NCBI GenBank assembly: GCA_017936265.1
Contig: JAGBFX010000061.1
Coordinates: 1-63,734, forward strand
Direction of reading: 5' to 3'
Source: Bacteroidaceae bacterium
GTDB taxonomy: Bacteria; Bacteroidota; Bacteroidia; Bacteroidales; Bacteroidaceae
Length of the DNA: 63,734 nt
This document shows positions 7,641 through 53,508 of the stretch, in pieces. Position 1 is the first letter of the stretch. Every line of letters begins with the position of its first letter. The notes beneath the pieces were generated by a model. It was not told the DNA's origin and made no database searches. It saw only the letters and a program-made list of their open reading frames with translations. Position numbers and translations under genes: made by a program.

Positions 7641-8120
7641 ATGAATACGATAGACATCATATATATTATTGCAACAGCAGGTGCTTTGATTGGAGGATTC
7701 ATGACAGGTTTCCTCAGCAAGGTCTCATCGATTGTCGGGATAGTATTTGGTATTTTCAATGCCATTGTACTGCAGGAAAGTGCAAGCAAGATGCTGCAGG
7801 ATGCCACCGAGCTCAGTGAGACTAACGCGACAATCATAGCATTCGCTGCTCTGCTGATTGTTTCATTCATCGCAGTCAAAATTGTTGCTGCGATATTGGC
7901 ATGGATTCTTGACGTGCTGCACCTGGGAATAATAAACAAGCTTGCAGGTGCCTTGCTATCGGGAATAGTGACATTAGTCATAGTTACTGCCATAATTGAT
8001 GTGACATCCCTTCTTGCACCAGAGAACAGATACACAGGGAAAACAGTACAGCAGGGTTCGATGTTCTATAACAAGATTGCCAATGATGTATACAAGGATG
8101 TCGTAACAAGACTTTTTTAG
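7641..8120 (+). CDS. CvpA family membrane protein
   Basis: A small integral membrane protein with four hydrophobic segments (about 5-27, 33-50, 68-92, 100-125) and the CvpA-type opening in which a helix is followed by GFMTGFLSKVSSIVGIVFG. In other bacteria CvpA is linked to colicin V export and envelope integrity; its molecular function is unsettled. It lies 15 bases after infB and 19 bases before sufB, so it is probably co-transcribed with both. Length (159) is normal. Confidence 0.85.
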   Translation: MNTIDIIYIIATAGALIGGFMTGFLSKVSSIVGIVFGIFNAIVLQESASKMLQDATELSETNATIIAFAALLIVSFIAVKIVAAILAWILDVLHLGIINKLAGALLSGIVTLVIVTAIIDVTSLLAPENRYTGKTVQQGSMFYNKIANDVYKDVVTRLF

Positions 8121-8139: not shown

Positions 8140-9582
8140 ATGAAGAAGAAGGATAACATACTAAAAAAGATTGCAAACAAAGCATACGAATTCGGATTTG
8201 TCAGCAAAATCAAGACAGATATAATTGAAAGCGGACTCAATGAGGATGTCATAAGGCTCATCTCGAAGAAGAAGAATGAGCCCTCATGGCTCCTTGAGTT
8301 CCGTCTTGAAGCATACAGGCACTGGCTAACACTGAAGATGCCCACATGGGCACACCTGAACATCCCCCCCATCGACTATCAGGCAATATCCTACTATGCC
8401 GACCCTCTGAAGAAGAGTAAGGAGAAGAACAAGGAGATTGACCCGGAACTGATGAAGACATTCGAGAAACTAGGTATCCCGCTCGAAGAGCGCCTTGCCC
8501 TGAGCGGCACGGCTGTCGACGCAGTGATGGACTCTGTTTCGGTAAAGACCACTTTCAAGGAGGAGTTGAAGGAGAAGGGAATCATATTCTGCTCCATGAG
8601 TGAGGCTGTTCAGGAGCATCCTGAACTTGTACGCCAGTACCTGGGAACGGTAGTGAACTACCGCGACAACTTCTTCGCTGCGCTGAACTCGGCTGTGTTC
8701 AGCGACGGTTCGTTCGCGTTCATACCCAAGGGAGTGCGCTGTCCCAGGGAGTTGTCGACATACTTCCGAATAAACGCGGCCAATACCGGTCAGTTCGAGC
8801 GTACGCTCATCGTGGCCGATGATGACAGCTATGTATCGTACCTTGAGGGCTGTACAGCCCCCATGCGCGATGAGAACCAGCTGCATGCCGCAATTGTAGA
8901 GATTGTAGTGAACAACAATGCCGAGGTAAAATACAGCACCGTACAGAACTGGTATCCAGGCGATGCCGAGGGCAAAGGCGGTGTATACAATTTCGTTACC
9001 AAACGTGGCGACTGCCGCGGCAGAAACAGCAAACTCTCGTGGACACAGGTCGAGACAGGCTCGGCAATCACATGGAAGTACCCGAGCTGCATACTGCGCG
9101 GCGACAATTCGCAAGGTGAGTTCTACTCGGTAGCACTTACCAACAACTACCAGCAGGCCGATACCGGCACCAAGATGATACACTTGGGAAAGAATACCAG
9201 GAGCACAATCATAAGCAAGGGAATCTCTGCAGGTAAGAGCCAGAACTCCTACCGCGGTCTGGTACGCGTGAGCAAGAATGCCGACGGGGCACGCAACTAC
9301 AGCCAGTGCGACTCGTTGCTGCTCGGCGACAAGTGCGGCGCGCACACATTCCCCTACATGGACATACATAACAACAGCGCGGTAATAGAGCATGAGGCCA
9401 CGACATCAAAGATATCGGAGGACCAGCTCTTTTACTGCAACCAGCGAGGAATAGGCACCGAAGAGGCTATCGGACTAATTGTCAACGGATATGCCAAAGA
9501 GGTGCTCAACAAACTGCCTATGGAGTTCGCCATTGAGGCACAGAAACTGCTCAGCGTATCCCTTGAGGGTGCCGTAGGCTGA
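8140..9582 (+). CDS. sufB: Fe-S cluster assembly protein SufB
   Basis: Scaffold subunit of the SufBC2D complex, on which Fe-S clusters are built from sulfide delivered by SufS. At 480 residues it is full length. Recognisable blocks are the N-terminal [21 protein letters not shown] helix region, [16 protein letters not shown], the long beta-helix core with SSKTTFKEE-like and NSYRGLV segments, and the C-terminal [18 protein letters not shown] and LFYCNQRGI blocks, including the conserved cysteine and histidine region. It heads the suf genes sufB-C-D-S and is preceded by a CvpA gene. The reading frame is intact, unlike that of sufC. Confidence 0.96.
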
Positions 9583-9598
9583 CAAAAATGATGATTAT

Positions 9599-10360
9599 AT
9601 GGAGAATTTGTTAGAGATTAAGAACCTCCATGCCACGATTGACGGCAAGGAGATACTGAAAGGAATAGACCTTACCGTGAAGGCGGGCGAGGTACATGCC
9701 ATCATGGGACCCAACGGTTCGGGCAAAAGCACTTTGAGCAATGTCCTTGTGGGACATCCTGCATACACCGTTACCGAAGGAGAGGTTTATTACAAAGGGA
9801 AGAATCTGCTCGGGATGAGCCCTGAGGACCGTAGCCATGAAGGCCTTTTCCTCTCGTTCCAGTATCCTGTGGAGATACCTGGTGTGAGCATCACAAATTT
9901 CATGCGTGCTGCAATAAACGCAAAGCGCCAGTATTTGGGACAGGAGCCTATGAATGCGACGGAGTTCCTGAAGATTATGCGCGAGAAGCGTGCGTAAGTG
10001 AACCTTGACAGCAAGCTCGCCAACCGTTCTGTAAACGAGGGCTTCAGCGGAGGAGAGAAGAAACGCAACGAGATATTCCAGATGGCAATGCTTGAGCCGA
10101 CACTAAGCATTCTCGATGAGACAGACTCCGGTCTTGACATCGATGCCTTGCGCATTGTTGCAGAGGGTGTCAACAAGCTTAAGCGCGAAGACACATCGAG
10201 CCTTGTCATTACCCACTACCAGAGGCTACTGGACTATATCAAGCCAGACATAGTGCATGTGCTCTACAACGGCAAGATTGTGAAGACTGCCGGTCCCGAG
10301 CTTGTAATGGAACTTGAGGAACGCGGTTATGACTGGATTAAAAACGAGAATAAGCAATGA
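9599..10360 (+). pseudogene. sufC: SufC ATPase interrupted by an in-frame TAA
   Basis: SufC is the ABC-type ATPase that drives the SufBC2D scaffold. The 762-base gene has normal length (253 residues if continuous), but codon 133 (9995-9997) is TAA. Both sides stay in the same frame and look undegraded. The first half (9599-9997) has Walker A GPNGSGKST (37-45) and the Q-loop region FLSFQYPVE. The second half (9998-10360, GTG at its first codon) has the signature SGGEKKR (150-156), Walker B LSILDET (169-175) and the H-loop ITHYQ. Family members usually have Val or Ile at the stop position, so GTA to TAA is not one change; TTA, GAA, CAA, AAA, TCA, TAT-type codons are one base away. The sufD start overlaps its stop (ATGA). 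It may be a real nonsense mutation, a sequence error, or a gene made in two pieces through restart at GTG. Confidence 0.85.
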
Positions 10361-11694
10361 GTCAGGAACAGGAATATATTGACATATTCGAGCAGAACCT
10401 GACGCTGATAAAGGAGCCATGTGCCGAGTTGCTCAACAAGGCACGCAAAAAAGCTGCTATCCGTTTCAAGGCGACAGGATTCCCAGGTAACAAGGAAGAG
10501 AACTGGCTGCACAGCAATGTTGCCAAGAGATTCGCTACCGACTATGGCATGAATCTCGGGCGAGTGGAGGTCAATGCCGAGAGACGCACGCTGTTCACAT
10601 GCGACGTCCCCAACCTCAACACCCACCAGGCATTCATTGTGAACGACACGTTCCGCGACGGCGAGAGCGGCAAAAAGCTCCCCGACGGTGTGATACTCGC
10701 AAGCCTCAACAGGATTGCCGAGGAGAGCCCCTCCCTGCTTGAGCCATACTACAATACCCTTGCCGAACAGGGCGACAGCATCGCGCAGTTCAACACCATG
10801 TTCGCACAGGACGGTGTCGTGCTCTACATACCCAAGAACACTGTCGTAGAGGAGACCGTGCAGATTGTAACACTGTTGCAGGCAAATGTTGAGATGCTCT
10901 CGAACCGCCGACTGCTGGTAATTCTGGAGGAAAATAGCCAGGCAAGCCTGCTCATCTGCGACCACTCGGCAATGGAGAAGCAGACACTCTCGACACAAGT
11001 CACAGAGATATTCATGGGCCGTGGCGCACAGCTTGACCTTTACGAACTTGAAGAGACAGCCTACAGCAATACAAGACTGAGCCATCTGTTCGTACGTCAG
11101 GAGGCCGACAGCCGTTTCAGCCACAGCAATATAACCCTTACCAACGGTTTTACACGCAACTACATAGGCGTATCACTCGAGGGCAAGGGAGCAGAGGCAA
11201 GCATAAACGGCCTTGTCATAGGCGACAAGAGCCAGCACACCGACAACCGCACCATTGTGGACCACAAGACAGGCAACTGCAACAGCAGCGAGCTCTACAA
11301 ATATATCCTTGATGAGCAGTCGACAGGAGTCTTTGCAGGCAAGATGCTCATACGCCCCGACGCACAGCAGACCGTCTCGCAGCAGACCAACCGGAACCTG
11401 TGCCTCACAAGCGACGCACACATGTATGCACAGCCCCAACTGGAGATATATGCCGATGACGTGAAGTGCAGCCATGGTTCGACTGTAGGCCAGTTGGATG
11501 ATAATGCACTCTTCTACATGCAGCAGCGCGGCATCCCTGCCGATGAGGCACGCCATCTGCTGATGTATGCTTTTGCAGGAGAGGTAATAGAGAACATCAA
11601 GATTGAAGCACTGCGCGACAGGCTGCACATGCTTGTCGAGAAGCGGTTGCGCGGCGAGCTCAACCATTGCAGGACATGTGCGCTCTGCAAGTAA
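10357..11694 (+). CDS. sufD: Fe-S cluster assembly protein SufD
   Basis: Structural partner of SufB in the SufBC2D complex, needed for iron entry and cluster assembly. The 445-residue protein has the N-terminal helical region ([13 protein letters not shown]), a central beta-helix, and the C-terminal SufBD block with [24 protein letters not shown] and the [14 protein letters not shown] helix. The start ATG overlaps the sufC stop as ATGA, implying tight translational coupling. That coupling matters here, because ribosomes that stop at the internal sufC TAA would have to restart to reach sufD. Confidence 0.95.
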
Positions 11695-11763: not shown

Positions 11764-12975
11764 ATGCTTAACACCGAAGAGATACGCAAGGAGTTCCCCA
11801 TACTGGAACAGAAGGTATACGGCAAGCCGCTGGTATACCTTGACAATGCCGCAACCACACAGAAACCGCAATGTGTCATTGATGTCCAGAATGAAGTTTA
11901 CACCACATTCAACGCCAACGTACACCGCGGAATACATCATCTGTCACAGGTCGCGACAGAAGCCATGGAACAGGCCCGTCACACTGTCAGGGAGTTCATC
12001 GGTGCCGCACACAGCCATGAAGTGGTCTTTACACGAGGTACCACTGAAAGTATAAACCTTGTAGCCTCATCATTCGGGAGCACATTCCTAAAGAGCGGCG
12101 ATGAGGTCATCATATCGGCAATGGAACATCACAGCAACATCGTGCCATGGCAGATGCTGCGGGACCGTATAGGAATAACATTGCGCATAATCCCGCTCAC
12201 TGCAGAGTGCACTCTTGACATAGACGCATACAAAAAACTGTTCAACGAGAGGACCAGGCTTGTCAGTGTCACGCACGTATCGAATGTGCTTGGTGTGACA
12301 AACCCGGTCAAAGAGATTATCGGGATTGCACACAGCCACAATGTACCCGTACTCGTTGACGGCGCACAGAGCGCCCCGCACATAAAGATTGACATGCAGG
12401 AGCTTGATGCCGATTTCTTCGCCTTCAGCGGGCACAAGGTCTATGCCCCTACAGGTATCGGTGTGCTCTACGGAAAGGAGAAGTGGCTGGACGCCATGCA
12501 GCCATACCACGGCGGCGGCGAGATGATAAAGAGCGTTAGTTTCGAGAAGACAACCTACAACACCCTGCCCTATAAGTTCGAGGCAGGTACACCCGACTAC
12601 GCGGGCATAATCGCACTCGGGAAGGCACTTGAATGGGTAAAGGAGAAGGGTATAGAGAATATTGCCGCACACGAGCATATGCTTACGCAATACGCAGTGG
12701 AGCAGTTGCAGAAAATTGAGGGCATGCGCATATTCGGCAAGCCTGACGGAGCGGCAGTATCATTCCTTGTCGGCAACATACACCCTGCAGACATGGGTAC
12801 CATACTCGACCACCTGGGCATTGCCGTACGCACAGGACATCACTGTGCACAGCCGCTCATGGATATTCTTGGAATACCCGGTACGGTACGTGCATCGTTT
12901 GCCGCATACAACACAAAGGAAGAGGTCGACACCCTAATCAAAGGTATTGAGAGAGCCTCAAGAATGTTCGCATAA
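11764..12975 (+). CDS. sufS: Cysteine desulfurase SufS
   Basis: A PLP enzyme of the NifS/SufS class II group that takes sulfur from L-cysteine and hands it as persulfide to the SUF scaffold. Lys225 in SGHKVYAPTG is the Schiff-base lysine, and Cys361 in RTGHHCAQPL is the persulfide-forming residue in the typical SufS context. TTRGTTE-like TRGTTESINLVA and VDGAQSAPH are the PLP-binding strands. The 403-residue length is normal. It follows sufD after 69 bases. No sufE or sufU partner gene lies in the window, so the sulfur-transfer partner must be elsewhere. Confidence 0.95.
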   Translation: MLNTEEIRKEFPILEQKVYGKPLVYLDNAATTQKPQCVIDVQNEVYTTFNANVHRGIHHLSQVATEAMEQARHTVREFIGAAHSHEVVFTRGTTESINLVASSFGSTFLKSGDEVIISAMEHHSNIVPWQMLRDRIGITLRIIPLTAECTLDIDAYKKLFNERTRLVSVTHVSNVLGVTNPVKEIIGIAHSHNVPVLVDGAQSAPHIKIDMQELDADFFAFSGHKVYAPTGIGVLYGKEKWLDAMQPYHGGGEMIKSVSFEKTTYNTLPYKFEAGTPDYAGIIALGKALEWVKEKGIENIAAHEHMLTQYAVEQLQKIEGMRIFGKPDGAAVSFLVGNIHPADMGTILDHLGIAVRTGHHCAQPLMDILGIPGTVRASFAAYNTKEEVDTLIKGIERASRMFA

Positions 12976-31168: not shown

Positions 31169-35434
<4,266 letters not shown>

Positions 35435-46140: not shown

Positions 46141-49100
46141 ATGCAGAGACGCACGCTGACACTGATGCTTATCCTTTTCGCAAGTATGATGGTACTTGCG
46201 CAGGGCAACGTGCGCTCCGACTCGATACGCAAGGCAAGGCGCAACACCACACGGCAGAGCGCAAATGTAAAGAATGACACCCTGCCCGCAAGGTTCCCCG
46301 TCGCAAAGACGACACCCGACAATGTGAACGACCTGCAGGGGCATGCCCTTGACCTGAAATCACCGCAGAACATAGTTACCGACACCATCTACAACGATAA
46401 AGACAGCACCTACATCATATCTACCAAGCTGAGCAGCGGTTCAATGCTTGGCACCCCGCTGCTGTTGAGCCGCGATGAATATTCGCTGTGGCACGAGAAG
46501 AGGCAGATGCAGAGCTACTTCAGGAAGAAAGGCAACGAAGAGTGGGAGAAGTCAAAGAAGAAGGACAAGTTCGACTTTACCGACATGCACTTCGACCTGG
46601 GACCGGCCGAGAAGATTTTCGGCCCGGGCGGTGTACGCATAAAGACAACTGGAAACGCCGAACTGAAGATAGGCTATTCGTTCCAGAGCATCGACAACCC
46701 TTCATTGCCATCGCGCAGCCGGAACACGAACAGTTTTGACTTTGATGAGAAAATCAATCTCAGCCTGCGAGGCAGTGTCGGCGACAAGATGAACATGGAC
46801 TTCAACTATAACACAGAGTCCACATTCAGCTATGACGCCAAGAAGATAAACCTTAAGTACGATGGCAAGGAGGATGAGGTCATAAAGCTGCTCGAGGCCG
46901 GCAACGTCTCGTTCCCTACCAATTCAAGCCTCATCAAGGGGGCATCATCGCTGTTCGGTATCAGAGCTGACCTGCAGTTCGGCAAGCTTACTTTGCAGAC
47001 CGTTGTGTCACAGAAGACATCAAACACCAGCACTGTCAGTTCAAAAGGAGGAACGCAACTTACCACATACGAGATTGAGATAACTGACTACGATGAGAAC
47101 AAGCACTTCTTCCTTGCGCACTACTTCCGTGACAACTACGACCGCTCAATGTCCCAGTTGCCTACAATCCTGTCGGGAGTCACTATCAACCGCATCGAGG
47201 TGTGGATTACCAACAAGACAAGCGACTACAACAACCCGCGCAACATTGTAGCATTCACCGACATCGGCGAAGGCAACCACATAAGCAACAGCATGTGGCA
47301 GAGCAATGGAGTGACAATCCCGGCGAACGAGGCCAACAACCTTTACTCGCAGATGAACAGCACATATTCGGCAATACGTGACGTCGACCAGGTAAATAAC
47401 GTACTGGGCAGCATAAGCGGGATGAACGGCGGAACCGACTATGAGAAACTGTCGAATGCCCGTTTGCTTTCTACATCGGAATATACCCTTAACAACGCAC
47501 TCGGTTTCATCTCGCTTAAGACACCGCTCCGTGCCGATGAGGTTCTTGCCGTCGCCTATGAATTCACATATGGCGGACAGACATACCAGGTCGGAGAGTT
47601 CTCGAGCGACGTAAAAGAGTCAAAGACAACCCTTTTCGTGAAGTTGCTGAAGCCCAACGCATGCTCTCCCAAGAACGGCTGCTGGGACCTCATGATGAAG
47701 AATGTCTATTCAATAGGAACACGCAGCCTCAAGGAGACGGACTTCAAGCTTGACGTATACTACGCCAGCGACAGTCTGGGAACAAACATAACATACCTGC
47801 CCGAGCAGGGCCTCAAGGGAGAGAGTCTGTTACAGATGCTCGGGCTCGACCGTCTTGACAGCAACAACAGCAAGGAGAACCCCAACGGAATATTCGACTT
47901 CATTCAGGGATACACAGTGGATGCCACTTCGGGCAGAATATTTTTCCCGTCGGTGGAGCCGTTCGGCAGCTATCTCAGAAAGAAAATCGGCAATGATGCC
48001 ATTGCCGACAAATATGTGTTTGAAGAGTTGTACGACTCGACAAAGACCGTTGCCAAGCAGATTGCCGAAAAGGACAAGTTCTACCTCATAGGAGAGTATA
48101 CAGGCTCATCGGCAAACGTGATACAGACAGGTTCTACGAACATACCGAGGGGGTCTGTCGTAGTGACAGCCGGCGGCGTTACGCTTGTAGAGAACAGCGA
48201 CTATCAGGTAGACTACTCATCGGGAACGGTAACAATCCTGAACCAGAACATCATAGACGCAGGCACCAACGTACAGGTATCGCTCGAGAGCAACACTCTC
48301 TTCAACATGCAGAGAAAGACTGTGCTCGGTCTCAACTGGAAGTATGACTACTCGGACGACTTCAAGTTCGGCGGTACATTGCTGTCGCTGTCGGAAAAGC
48401 CGCTGACATCAAAGGTAGACATGGGCTCTGAGCCTTTGCAGAATTTCCTGTGGGGATTCAACCTCAGCTGGAAGAAGCAGAGCCAGTGGCTCACAAACAT
48501 GATTGACAAGCTGCCGTTCATCAGCTGTACAGAGCCGTCATCAATAAACCTGTCGGCCGAGTTCGCACGTCTTGAGGCAGGGACATCGAGCGACGTACAG
48601 AGCGAGGCATCATATATCGATGACTTCGAGAGCACCGAGAACGGCATTGACATCAAGTCTCCGTCACAATGGATGCTCGCAGCCTTGCCAAGCGGCATGC
48701 CCTACAGTAACCTCACAAACGACATACGCACGGGATATGACCGTGCCCACATCAGTTGGTACACCATTGACCCGCTCTTCACACGCCGCAGTTCATCGCT
48801 TACACCGGCACACATCAAGAGCGACATGGAACAGTTGTCGAACCACTATGTGCGCGAGGTATACGAACGCGAGCTATACCCCAACAAGGAATCAACATAC
48901 GGCGAGTCATCGACACTATCGCTGCTGAACGTCACATACTATCCCAACGAGCGAGGTCCTTACAACCTTGACACAGATGTAAACTACGACGGACACCTGA
49001 ATAACCCAGAGAAACGTTGGGGAGGTATCACGCGTCAGCTGACGACAACAGACTTCGAGGGAGCCAACATACAGTACCTCGAGTTCTGGCTGCTCGACCC

Positions 49101-52100
49101 GTTCATCTATGAGCAGGCCGGCATGGGCGGCGAGCTCTATTTCAACCTCGGCGAAGTGTCCGAGGACATCTTGAAGGACGGCAAGAAGTTCTATGAGAAC
49201 GGCCTTCCGGCAAGCAGCAACTCATACAGCTATGAGGAGACTGCATGGGGACGTATACCCACAACCACCAGCCTTGTATATGCGTTCGACAACAACAACG
49301 ACAGCCGCAAGCAGCAGGATGTGGGCCTCAACGGACTCAGCAGCATGGATGAGGCCAATTTCCCTGTATACAGGGATTACCTTGCCGCGCTCAACGGACG
49401 CGTGCGACCCGAGGTATATGACAGCATTGCAGCCGACCCCGCCGGCGACAACTACCACTACTTCAGAGGCGGCGACTACGATGCGGCTCAACGCGGCATT
49501 ATTGAGCGATACAAATATTACAACAATACCGAGGGTAACTCCCCCTCATCGGACGGCAGCAGCTTCAGCAGTGCGGCAAAGACCACTCCAGACATTGAAG
49601 ACGCCAACCAGGACTTCACCATGGATGAGTACGAGAACTTCTTCCAGTACAGGATATCGCTGCGTCCCGAAGATATGCAGGTAGGAAAGAACTACATTAC
49701 CGACAAGCGCACCGTAACGACCAAGCTACGCAACGGCAATACAGAGAGCGTCGACTGGTACAAGTTCCGTATACCTATAAACGAGTATGAGAAGATTGTA
49801 GGCTCGATACGCGACTTCACATCGATACGTTTCATACGTATGTACATGACGCAGTTCCAGAAGCCCGTCACCCTGCGTTTTGCCACAATGCAGCTTGTTC
49901 GAGGCGACTGGCGCCCTTATATGCAGCCCATTGCATCGAAGCTCAATACCGCACCGACAATCTCGGGCGAGTTCACCACATCAGCTGTAAGCATCGAGGA
50001 GCATGGCGACAGGAAGCCAGTGAACTATGTGCTGCCTCCGGGCATCACCCGCATACTCGACCCGAGCCAGCCACAGCTGCGTCAGGACAATGAGCAGGCA
50101 CTCTCACTCAACGTAAGCAACCTCGGCAGCAAGGAGTCGCGTGCCGTATACAAGAAGAGCAATCTTGATATACGCCAATATGAGCGCATACAACTGTACA
50201 TACATGCCGAGGCGCCCGAGTTCGGAGCAAACGAGCTGAAGGACAATGACCTGTCGCTGTTCATCCGTTTGGGCTCGGACTACAAGAGCAACTACTATGA
50301 GTATGAGGTTCCGCTGAATGTGACTCCTCATGGCTCTTACGACGGCAACAGCACAGCTGCCGCAACAGCCGTGTGGCCGCAGGAGAACATGATTGACATA
50401 CCGCTGAGCAAACTCACGGACATTAAGGTAAAGCGCAATACCCTGCGAAATAACAATGCCGAGGGTGTGAGCAACACAACCATATACAGCGAGTATGATG
50501 ATGACACTCCAAAGAACAGGATAAGCATCGTGGGAAGCCCATCTATCGGCCAGATAAAGGTAATGATGATTGGTATTCGCAACAACAGTCCGAGCGCCAA
50601 GTCTGCAACGGTGTGGGTAAACGAGATGCGCCTTCTGGGCTTCAACAACAAGAGCGGATGGGCGGCACAAGGAAACCTCAACATCAAACTGAGCGACATC
50701 GGTTCGTTTGCAGCGCAGGGCAAGATTGAAACAGCCGGTTTCGGCGGCCTCGAGGACAAGCTGGCATCGCGTCGCACCGATGACTACTACCGCTACTCGT
50801 TGACAGGAACAGTCGACTTCGGCCGTTTCTTCCCCAAATCGTTCAAGTTGTCGTTGCCGACATACTACTCATACACCGAAGAGGTGACATCGCCGCTCTA
50901 CAGCCCGTTCGACTCGGACCTTCTTCTTGATGACGTGCTCGGCTCATACAGCGGAGCAAGCAGGGACTCGTTGAGGAACATTGCCGAGGTACATTCCGTA
51001 ATGCGCAATTTCAGCATCAGCAACGCCAAGCTCAACATAAAGAGCAAGACCGCCATGCCCTATGACCCCGCGAATTTCAGCATAAGCTTCTCGCATTCAA
51101 CAACCGACAATAGCGGAAGCACAGTCAGCTGGGAAAACAGGCTAAATTGGAAGGCGTCGCTCGCATACAACTATGCAAGCCCAATAAAGACCATCAAGCC
51201 GTTCGAGAAGATGATAAAGAGCAAGTCGAAGTGGTTCAAGATCCTAAAGGAATGGGGAATAAACCCGCTGCCACAGTCACTTGCCCTTAACTCAGACATA
51301 ACACGCTCGTACCACGAGCTGCAGCGACGCGACCTCAATGCCATTGCCGGCGGCGAGGAGATACCGCTTACCTTCTCGCAGCAGTTCTATTGGAACCGCT
51401 CGATGTCAATAAAGTGGGACCCCACCACCAACCTCAAGATGAGCCTCAGCACAGGCACCAATGCCGAGATTGAGGAGCCGTTCCTGCCTGTGAACAAGGA
51501 CAAGTACCCCAACGAGTATGCCATCTGGAAAGACTCGGTAAAGACAAGCCTTAAAGGGATGGGCCGACCGCTCGGCTATCAGCAGAACTTCACGGCCTCA
51601 TACACTCTGCCATTCAACAAGATGCCTATCTTCGAGTGGCTCACAGCAGACGCCAGCTACTCGGCGACATACAACTGGCAGAGAGGAAACAGTGTCGGAG
51701 GCGTGAACTTCGGCAACAACATCGCCAACAAGAGGAACGTGACACTTAAAGGAACGCTCAACTTCGAGAAGCTGTACAACATATTCCCTTATCTCGAGGA
51801 GACAAACAAGCGTTTCGCAAGCAGCAACAAGAAATCGACAAGCAAGAGCAAGAAGAAAGTCCAGAAACCGAAGCCCTTTACCAAGGAGATAAAGCTACAG
51901 ATGGACACCACCGTCACGCTTGCACATAACCTCAAGAGCAAAAAGCTGGAGATAACCGCACGCACCAAGAGCGGCGAGAAGTACAAGCTCAAGTACAAGG
52001 TAATCGATGAGAACAAAATTCTCATAAAGAACAACGACAGCATCAGCGTCAAGGTTACAGTTCTTGCCAAGGCCAAGAACGGCGAGAGGAGCAGTTTTGC

Positions 52101-53508
52101 CAAAGCCATGCAATACCCGACAAGGGCACTCATGATGGTACGCAACGTCTCGTTCAGCTACACCAACGCATATGCCATGAACCTTCCGGGATTCATGCCT
52201 TCGGCGGGCGACATGTTCGGTCAGGGACGGAGCGACGGCATGTATGCACCAGGTCTTGACTTCGCGTTCGGCCTCACCGATGACAGTTTCCTTGGAAAGG
52301 CCCACAAACGCAACTGGCTACTGAGGAACGACAGCATATCGGCACAGGCAACGACAACTGCGGCCGAGGATTTGCAGGTGCGCATGACCCTTGAACCGCT
52401 AAAGGACCTGAAAATAGACCTCAATGCCAACTGGACACGCAACCAGAGCAAGAGCATACAGTTCATGTATGACGGCATGCCCACCAACGAGTCGGGAGGA
52501 TTCAACATGACGACAATAAGCATAGGCAACTCTTTCGGTGGCGGCAAGGCAAGCAATAACTACCAGAGTGACGTATTCGACAAATTTGTCGGCAGCCTTG
52601 AGAAACACCGCACACGCATAGAGAAGAAATATGAGGGTAGCCGATACCCGGCATCAAGCTCACTGGCAGGCGAACTGTATGACCCGGCGAACGGCGGTGT
52701 AGACCTCTACTCGGCCGACGTGATGATACCCGCATTCCTTGAGGCATACTCAAACGGCGGCGGAACAGATATATTCCCGTCAATGCTGAGCATGCTGCCA
52801 AACTGGAAAATCAAGTATTCGGGTCTTTCAAAACTCGAATGGTTCAAGAAGTGGTTCAAGAGCGTCAACATCGAACACGGTTACAAGAGTGTATATGCAG
52901 TGGGTTCATACAGCACATACGCCACATACATGGAGTACACAAACGGCATCGGCTATGTAAACAACACGGCCACAGGCATGCCGATACCAAGCAGCCGCTA
53001 CAACATAAGCACGGTATCAATAAACGAGAGTTTCTCTCCGCTGTTCGGGCTTGACGTTACCACGAACAACAATCTCACGCTCGGAGGCAAGTTCATCCAG
53101 TCAAGAGTCCTGAATCTGAGTCTCACTGCCATACAGATGGTAGAGACCTACTCGCAGGAGATAGCCTTCAATGTAGGCTACAAGATACTTGGCGTAAAAT
53201 TGTTCGGCGGCGGAAAGAAAGCGAGCAAGAAGAAGGAAAGTAAGGGCAACGACATAAACCTCCGCGCCGACTTCTCGTTCAAGAACACATCATCAATTTG
53301 CCGTAGCATAGACAAGGGCACGACACAGGCGACAAGCGGCAACAAGTCGTTCAACTACTCATTTACGGCCGACTATGCATACAGCAAAATGCTTACCTTC
53401 AGCCTCTACTTTGACAGGCAGAAGACAATACCTCTTATATCTACAAGCTCATACCCGACCACGACAACCGACTTCGGTATCAGCATGAAATTCTCTTTGA
53501 CAAGATAA
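46141..53508 (+). CDS. sprA: T9SS outer-membrane translocon protein SprA (Sov)
   Basis: The giant beta-barrel that forms the protein-conducting channel of the type IX secretion system, also tied to gliding motility in flavobacteria. 2455 residues, close to the usual size. A signal peptide (about 1-21, ending MVLAQG) is followed by repeated beta-rich plug and barrel segments. Recognised blocks include FGPGGVRIKTTGNAELKIGY, FNYNTESTFSYDAKKINLKYDG, SYIDDFESTENGIDI and SKQFSY-like amphipathic strands. The C-terminus ends in an aromatic-capped barrel strand (TDFGISMKFSLTR). The frame is intact over 7.3 kb. It follows ruvA by 22 bases, a neighbourhood common in Bacteroidales. A likely client, the GH2 enzyme with a T9SS-type C-terminus, lies 10 kb away. 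Confidence 0.95.
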   Translation: MQRRTLTLMLILFASMMVLAQGNVRSDSIRKARRNTTRQSANVKNDTLPARFPVAKTTPDNVNDLQGHALDLKSPQNIVTDTIYNDKDSTYIISTKLSSGSMLGTPLLLSRDEYSLWHEKRQMQSYFRKKGNEEWEKSKKKDKFDFTDMHFDLGPAEKIFGPGGVRIKTTGNAELKIGYSFQSIDNPSLPSRSRNTNSFDFDEKINLSLRGSVGDKMNMDFNYNTESTFSYDAKKINLKYDGKEDEVIKLLEAGNVSFPTNSSLIKGASSLFGIRADLQFGKLTLQTVVSQKTSNTSTVSSKGGTQLTTYEIEITDYDENKHFFLAHYFRDNYDRSMSQLPTILSGVTINRIEVWITNKTSDYNNPRNIVAFTDIGEGNHISNSMWQSNGVTIPANEANNLYSQMNSTYSAIRDVDQVNNVLGSISGMNGGTDYEKLSNARLLSTSEYTLNNALGFISLKTPLRADEVLAVAYEFTYGGQTYQVGEFSSDVKESKTTLFVKLLKPNACSPKNGCWDLMMKNVYSIGTRSLKETDFKLDVYYASDSLGTNITYLPEQGLKGESLLQMLGLDRLDSNNSKENPNGIFDFIQGYTVDATSGRIFFPSVEPFGSYLRKKIGNDAIADKYVFEELYDSTKTVAKQIAEKDKFYLIGEYTGSSANVIQTGSTNIPRGSVVVTAGGVTLVENSDYQVDYSSGTVTILNQNIIDAGTNVQVSLESNTLFNMQRKTVLGLNWKYDYSDDFKFGGTLLSLSEKPLTSKVDMGSEPLQNFLWGFNLSWKKQSQWLTNMIDKLPFISCTEPSSINLSAEFARLEAGTSSDVQSEASYIDDFESTENGIDIKSPSQWMLAALPSGMPYSNLTNDIRTGYDRAHISWYTIDPLFTRRSSSLTPAHIKSDMEQLSNHYVREVYERELYPNKESTYGESSTLSLLNVTYYPNERGPYNLDTDVNYDGHLNNPEKRWGGITRQLTTTDFEGANIQYLEFWLLDPFIYEQAGMGGELYFNLGEVSEDILKDGKKFYENGLPASSNSYSYEETAWGRIPTTTSLVYAFDNNNDSRKQQDVGLNGLSSMDEANFPVYRDYLAALNGRVRPEVYDSIAADPAGDNYHYFRGGDYDAAQRGIIERYKYYNNTEGNSPSSDGSSFSSAAKTTPDIEDANQDFTMDEYENFFQYRISLRPEDMQVGKNYITDKRTVTTKLRNGNTESVDWYKFRIPINEYEKIVGSIRDFTSIRFIRMYMTQFQKPVTLRFATMQLVRGDWRPYMQPIASKLNTAPTISGEFTTSAVSIEEHGDRKPVNYVLPPGITRILDPSQPQLRQDNEQALSLNVSNLGSKESRAVYKKSNLDIRQYERIQLYIHAEAPEFGANELKDNDLSLFIRLGSDYKSNYYEYEVPLNVTPHGSYDGNSTAAATAVWPQENMIDIPLSKLTDIKVKRNTLRNNNAEGVSNTTIYSEYDDDTPKNRISIVGSPSIGQIKVMMIGIRNNSPSAKSATVWVNEMRLLGFNNKSGWAAQGNLNIKLSDIGSFAAQGKIETAGFGGLEDKLASRRTDDYYRYSLTGTVDFGRFFPKSFKLSLPTYYSYTEEVTSPLYSPFDSDLLLDDVLGSYSGASRDSLRNIAEVHSVMRNFSISNAKLNIKSKTAMPYDPANFSISFSHSTTDNSGSTVSWENRLNWKASLAYNYASPIKTIKPFEKMIKSKSKWFKILKEWGINPLPQSLALNSDITRSYHELQRRDLNAIAGGEEIPLTFSQQFYWNRSMSIKWDPTTNLKMSLSTGTNAEIEEPFLPVNKDKYPNEYAIWKDSVKTSLKGMGRPLGYQQNFTASYTLPFNKMPIFEWLTADASYSATYNWQRGNSVGGVNFGNNIANKRNVTLKGTLNFEKLYNIFPYLEETNKRFASSNKKSTSKSKKKVQKPKPFTKEIKLQMDTTVTLAHNLKSKKLEITARTKSGEKYKLKYKVIDENKILIKNNDSISVKVTVLAKAKNGERSSFAKAMQYPTRALMMVRNVSFSYTNAYAMNLPGFMPSAGDMFGQGRSDGMYAPGLDFAFGLTDDSFLGKAHKRNWLLRNDSISAQATTTAAEDLQVRMTLEPLKDLKIDLNANWTRNQSKSIQFMYDGMPTNESGGFNMTTISIGNSFGGGKASNNYQSDVFDKFVGSLEKHRTRIEKKYEGSRYPASSSLAGELYDPANGGVDLYSADVMIPAFLEAYSNGGGTDIFPSMLSMLPNWKIKYSGLSKLEWFKKWFKSVNIEHGYKSVYAVGSYSTYATYMEYTNGIGYVNNTATGMPIPSSRYNISTVSINESFSPLFGLDVTTNNNLTLGGKFIQSRVLNLSLTAIQMVETYSQEIAFNVGYKILGVKLFGGGKKASKKKESKGNDINLRADFSFKNTSSICRSIDKGTTQATSGNKSFNYSFTADYAYSKMLTFSLYFDRQKTIPLISTSSYPTTTTDFGISMKFSLTR

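Follow-up and report, generated by a model that had tools for sequence, protein, structure and literature searches.

The sufC gene carried by the window, the whole 63,734-nucleotide stretch of Bacteroidaceae DNA analysed here, is interrupted at codon 133 by an in-frame TAA that is private to this genome among the genomes searched. Comparison with related sequences suggests that this codon is probably either a consensus artefact or a nonsense mutation of very recent date in a gene that otherwise works and, with similar confidence, that the lineage does not maintain the stop.

The interrupted gene lies in a run of genes read in one direction, in the order nusA, infB, a cvpA-like gene, sufB, sufC, sufD, sufS and rnhB. 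The features of the suf locus are the following.

8140..9582, + strand: sufB, intact (NF008773, 890.4 bits)
9599..10360, + strand: sufC, full-length frame with one interruption (TIGR01978, 365.3 bits when read through, one TAA inside)
9599..9997, + strand: first part of sufC, 132 aa, with Walker A and the Q-loop region (TIGR01978 positions 1-127)
9995..9997, + strand: in-frame TAA at sufC codon 133 (CTT, Leu, in the nearest relative, genome G004)
9998..10360, + strand: second part of sufC, 120 aa from GTG, with signature, Walker B and H-loop (TIGR01978 positions 131-243)
10357..11694, + strand: sufD, intact (its ATG overlaps the sufC TGA as ATGA)
11764..12975, + strand: sufS, intact (TIGR01979, 582.6 bits)

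A single frame runs throughout sufC, from the ATG at 9599 through the TAA at 9995-9997 and the GTG at 9998-10000 to the terminal TGA at 10358-10360. The first-pass annotation had described a TAA splitting sufC in frame with a GTG directly after it, and both coordinates and translation bear this out. It had also stated that the two halves keep their ABC-ATPase motifs, and we located these on each side of the TAA: Walker A (GPNGSGKS) and the Q-loop region upstream, the signature, Walker B and the H-loop (ITHY) downstream, the segments being those that we take to correspond to these motif names. Its description of sufB, sufD and sufS as intact agrees with profile matches, by which all three are full length. 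Read through the stop, sufC matched positions 1-243 of TIGR01978 and passed the curated cut-off of 212.8 bits, while the pieces taken singly scored 172.4 and 179.3 bits, both under it. Together the two parts make a complete SufC with every part of the ATPase present and in order, in an operon with sufB, sufD and sufS; the reading frame, which is uninterrupted in a SufC, is cut here at codon 133. The solved SufC chain 2zu0_C aligned over residues 3-249 of the homologue from locus L079; other solved chains were 11mp_A with 2d3w, and 2d2e. Of these, 2zu0_C and 11mp_A with 2d3w are presumably E. coli SufC.

Several other features of the window were recorded along the way. The cvpA-like gene adjoining sufB (7641-8120) is conserved to a far lower degree, with 83% DNA and 87% amino-acid identity to its counterpart in G004, than the remaining 12 genes in the comparison with that genome (93-97% DNA identity). 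Between the points that match 17026 and 17134, G004 carries about 10 kb that are absent from the window and from G030, with four open reading frames longer than 150 aa, among them two that reach 1045 and 1147 aa; this looks like an island inserted in G004, in a comparison where the stretches from G035, G029 and G032 did not cover the site. A 2455-aa SprA homologue (PF14349 SprA_N, motility/secretion protein) is encoded at 46141-53508, just after a ruvA gene. On the minus strand, 31169-35431 encodes a 1420-aa beta-galactosidase of the LacZ type (GH2) in which a ricin-type beta-trefoil lectin domain lies close to the N-terminus; such a pairing of domains is unusual.

The source genome (G000) consists of 62 contigs totalling 2.40 Mb, the window being contig 23, and is 87.31% complete and 0.21% contaminated. 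The most similar SufC proteins among named relatives belong to Bacteroidaceae metagenome-assembled genomes from sheep rectum, roe deer caecum and water buffalo caecum; the source is therefore probably itself a metagenome-assembled genome from a herbivore gut. Absences reported below for this genome rest on about 87% of it and, with about 13% missing, are not final.

The first-pass annotation had proposed that a TAA conserved in related strains would support a real split gene. None of 109 related loci carried a stop, in a set that counts some genomes twice (L014 and L079, for example, come from contigs of equal length, 87319) and thus represents fewer than 109 species. One locus, L027, was aligned over a slightly shorter length. 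Residue 133 in these loci is Ile (40), Leu (38), Val (22), Met (4), Phe (4) or Tyr (1). At the level of the genus, 39 of 44 genomes matched SufC at E <= 1e-60, and an inner stop occurred in one of the 40 copies listed, that of the source genome. Across the order, 374 of 393 genomes matched SufC, and among the best 150 matches listed by E-value, drawn from those 374 genomes, the source genome again had the only inner stop. The split position is thus not common to related genomes, and in a comparison set with one genome per species, none of these three samples (the 109 loci, the genus and the best 150 matches of the order) held a second species with a stop at the same position.

In order to place the stop in time, we compared the two parts of sufC with G004, to which the gene is 93% identical in DNA with zero indels. 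The first part differs by 18 synonymous changes and 4 amino-acid differences, the second by 28 synonymous and no nonsynonymous changes. Differences were polarised with five other relatives as outgroups, and the 9 synonymous differences of ambiguous direction, of which 5 lie before the stop and 4 after it, were dropped. Among the 28 in the second part, 17 fell on the window branch and 7 on the G004 branch, with 4 ambiguous. Two of the amino-acid differences in the first part arose on the window lineage and two on that of G004. One of the former is at residue 72, which is Glu in G004 and all five outgroups and varies across the 109 loci (E 58, A 33, S 9, D 5, K 2, T 1, Q 1). The second part contains 282.5 nonsynonymous and 77.5 synonymous sites, and about 62 amino-acid changes would be expected on the window branch had this part been unconstrained along all of it; none was observed. 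By rough arithmetic, any loss of constraint on this part would cover less than about 5% of the window branch. The stop is then either very young, or not truly present in the species, or else the downstream part is still made; in such a comparison, selection maintained since the stop arose cannot be distinguished from a very young stop.

We also looked for interrupted genes elsewhere in the genome. A hexamer-based scan of the window plus 400 kb from three other contigs (464 kb, about 19% of the genome) returned 25 stops flanked on either side by coding-like sequence, that of sufC included, and the score just after the sufC stop was the highest (1.1, the next being 0.79). The scan was loose and sensitive, passing 93% of 3368 positions in 78 held-out genes. 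Five of the other 24 places were checked against Pfam. In four the two pieces matched different families, so these were taken as boundaries between genes and rejected as interrupted genes; for the fifth, the piece downstream matched no family, and a Met lies two codons beyond the stop. Short peptides were used to assess the other 19 by eye. Among 13 syntenic genes compared with G004, 12 have no inner stop, inner stops on the minus strand opposite real genes being set aside as antisense noise; the check for frameshifts was limited to this same comparison. SufC is the only convincing interrupted gene in the 464 kb, the one place where strong coding signal continues across a stop within a single protein family, which goes beyond chance; the assembly is therefore not generally error-rich.

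At codon 133 itself, the window has TAA and G004 has CTT, so that all three bases differ. Such codons are infrequent (3 of 5560 in the 13 genes compared with G004), and the remaining pair, found in infB and sufS, both change the amino acid. The leucine codon TTA, one step from TAA, accounts for 8 of the 490 Leu codons in these genes, and of 134 Leu sites at which G004 uses CTT, the window has TTA at only 1. Since TTA is rare, a one-base error or a one-base mutation to TAA would have had to begin from an uncommon codon. The TAA could also be accounted for by a clustered change, by an intermediate Phe or Tyr codon, both residues being present at position 133 among relatives, or by longer tolerance of a stop. 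A search for local repeats or a duplicated template behind the three-base change gave nothing convincing. The oddity is a mild one; it weighs equally against an error and a young mutation, and it leaves room for a SufC made as two chains.

The first-pass annotation had set out three competing explanations well, namely an error, a recent nonsense mutation and production of SufC as two polypeptides, the last of which receives no support from relatives. The explanation that we favour, at roughly even chances, is that the assembled consensus is wrong at codon 133, through a sequencing or assembly error or because several strains were merged into a single contig. Alternatively, and perhaps half as probably, the sampled strain would carry a very young nonsense mutation that selection has yet to remove. 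In that case the gene would yield a 132-residue product that ends before the signature, Walker B and H-loop and would be nearly or fully inactive as SufC, and expression of sufD would be expected to be lost by polarity because the sufD start overlaps the sufC stop. Observed directly are the stop, its restriction to one of the genomes searched, the intact neighbouring genes and the constraint on the downstream part; we infer both the choice between error and young mutation and all of the protein products described here. A comparable situation is that of interrupted coding sequences (ICDS), for example in Mycobacterium smegmatis, where likewise a single interruption in an otherwise intact gene may be an error or an authentic mutation (PMC1852416, in the part available); the present case differs from that one in that it comes from the draft genome of an uncultured species and that the codon differs at all three bases from that of the nearest relative.

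A less likely reading is that translation stops at the TAA and restarts at the touching GTG, the two resulting polypeptides assembling into a functional ATPase within SufBCD. It has the appeal of a possible start directly after the stop, and the first-pass annotation had called the TAA-GTG junction suggestive, adding that the GTG could also simply be the conserved Val codon. The second remark is the one that held. Column 134 is an invariant Val in 23 of 23 aligned proteins; its codon is most commonly GTG in the 109 loci (GTG 51, GTC 25, GTA 23, GTT 10) and is GTG in 10 of the 29 loci of the genus; and G004 has GTG at codon 134 with no stop before it. The GTG is thus older than the stop and simply the codon of this Val, so the junction carries no independent weight and displays no visible selection. 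A pattern scan of viral_contigs found no instance of the same junction. Other observations are more favourable to a two-chain SufC. The ATGA overlap between sufC and sufD, present in the window and in all five relatives displayed, would make stopping followed by restarting plausible at this locus. In the predicted structure of the L079 protein (mean pLDDT 87.8), a helix spans residues 120-133 and the next one residues 138-141, so that codon 133 would be the last residue of a helix before a short loop; the model suggests a lenient site and a mild break point. The full constraint on the downstream part is what a still-translated part would show, and the three-base difference could reflect several steps at a tolerated stop. 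Against this, the TAA occurs in no relative examined, Walker A and Walker B, which form one active site, would fall on different chains, and searches of the available literature for a SufC in two parts, or for an ABC ATPase split and translated by reinitiation, showed no precedent among the papers listed. We regard a two-polypeptide SufC as unlikely, and slightly more so the specific proposal that the only SufC of this lineage has just become a two-chain ATPase, cut between the Q-loop and the signature by a TAA stop and a GTG restart.

Frequent readthrough of the TAA, sufficient to provide full-length SufC, is a still more doubtful explanation. In-frame stops under purifying selection have been reported as widespread, with readthrough proposed for them, and sufC resembles these cases in its low nonsynonymous change after the stop and in the lack of any other sign of decay (Belinky et al. 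2021, PMC7918605, in the part available). However, the same part of that study focuses on stops found at the same position in at least two species in order to reduce artefacts (PMC7918605), while the sufC stop is found in one genome. All anticodons of the 32 tRNAs found in the 87% complete genome were read and none is a UAA-reading tRNA, and the 12 other syntenic genes give no sign of recoding; reassignment of the stop codon was rejected on these same two grounds. TAA is moreover usually the least leaky stop.

The last explanation is a fixed loss of sufC in the species, SUF being dispensable or replaced by a system encoded in the missing part of the genome. We searched for such a bypass. The first-pass annotation had also considered a second intact sufC elsewhere; in the 87% of the genome available, none was found above the TIGR01978 cut-off, the other 35 matches all falling below it. 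Three of these were flagged with an inner stop: in C42 and C15 the flagged stop is the gene's own end and both were rejected as interrupted copies, and the third, C43, scores 19.5 bits. One SufS is present above cut-off. Within the genus, G013 alone has more than one sufC at E <= 1e-60, with two copies on one contig (C59, 123459-124204 on the + strand and 141939-142684 on the - strand) of equal score and opposite orientation, possibly an inverted duplication or an assembly error. SufC was found in 11 of the 11 genus genomes with completeness of 90% or more and contamination of 5% or less. IscU/NifU (PF01592) was above cut-off in none of the 44 genus genomes, with sub-cut-off matches in 34 of them, including one of 20.4 bits in the source genome; Bacteroides ihuae, serving as control, was above cut-off in the same search. 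From these profile searches, SUF appears to be the sole scaffold system of the genus, which makes an established loss of sufC unlikely; the lack of any other sufC or ISC scaffold above cut-off would by the same token suit a SufC that is still made, in two pieces.

SUF is usually needed where it is the sole Fe-S system. The first-pass annotation had stated that SufC is normally required, which is mostly right, with the reservation that S. mutans remains viable when either sufC or the entire cluster is deleted: in this species, where SUF is the only known Fe-S system, the available part of one study reports that deletion of sufC had no significant effect on growth and that the whole-cluster mutant was viable but impaired (PMC8264796). 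For Bacteroides, a paper that lists essential-gene sets calls sufC conserved in the part available (PMC6283598). Tolerance of this kind, together with the missing 13% of the genome, which may hide a second system, speaks for a fixed loss, but the lack of any amino-acid difference from G004 after the stop and the amino-acid identity of sufB and sufD to those of G004 (99.6% and 96.9%) speak against it, as does the scarcity of alternatives in the genus, and we consider it the least probable explanation of all.

We thus return to a consensus artefact or a very recent nonsense mutation as the probable origin of the TAA. As the evidence stands, the case mainly illustrates how a lone stop confined to one draft genome can pass for new biology, and what deflates such an impression: whether the stop is private, whether constraint continues after it, and whether the apparent start codon existed before it. 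If the stop were nevertheless real and fixed, what is apparently the only Fe-S system of this bacterium would run on a broken, read-through or two-piece ATPase, and sufC would offer a naturally occurring split ABC-type ATPase that is directly testable.
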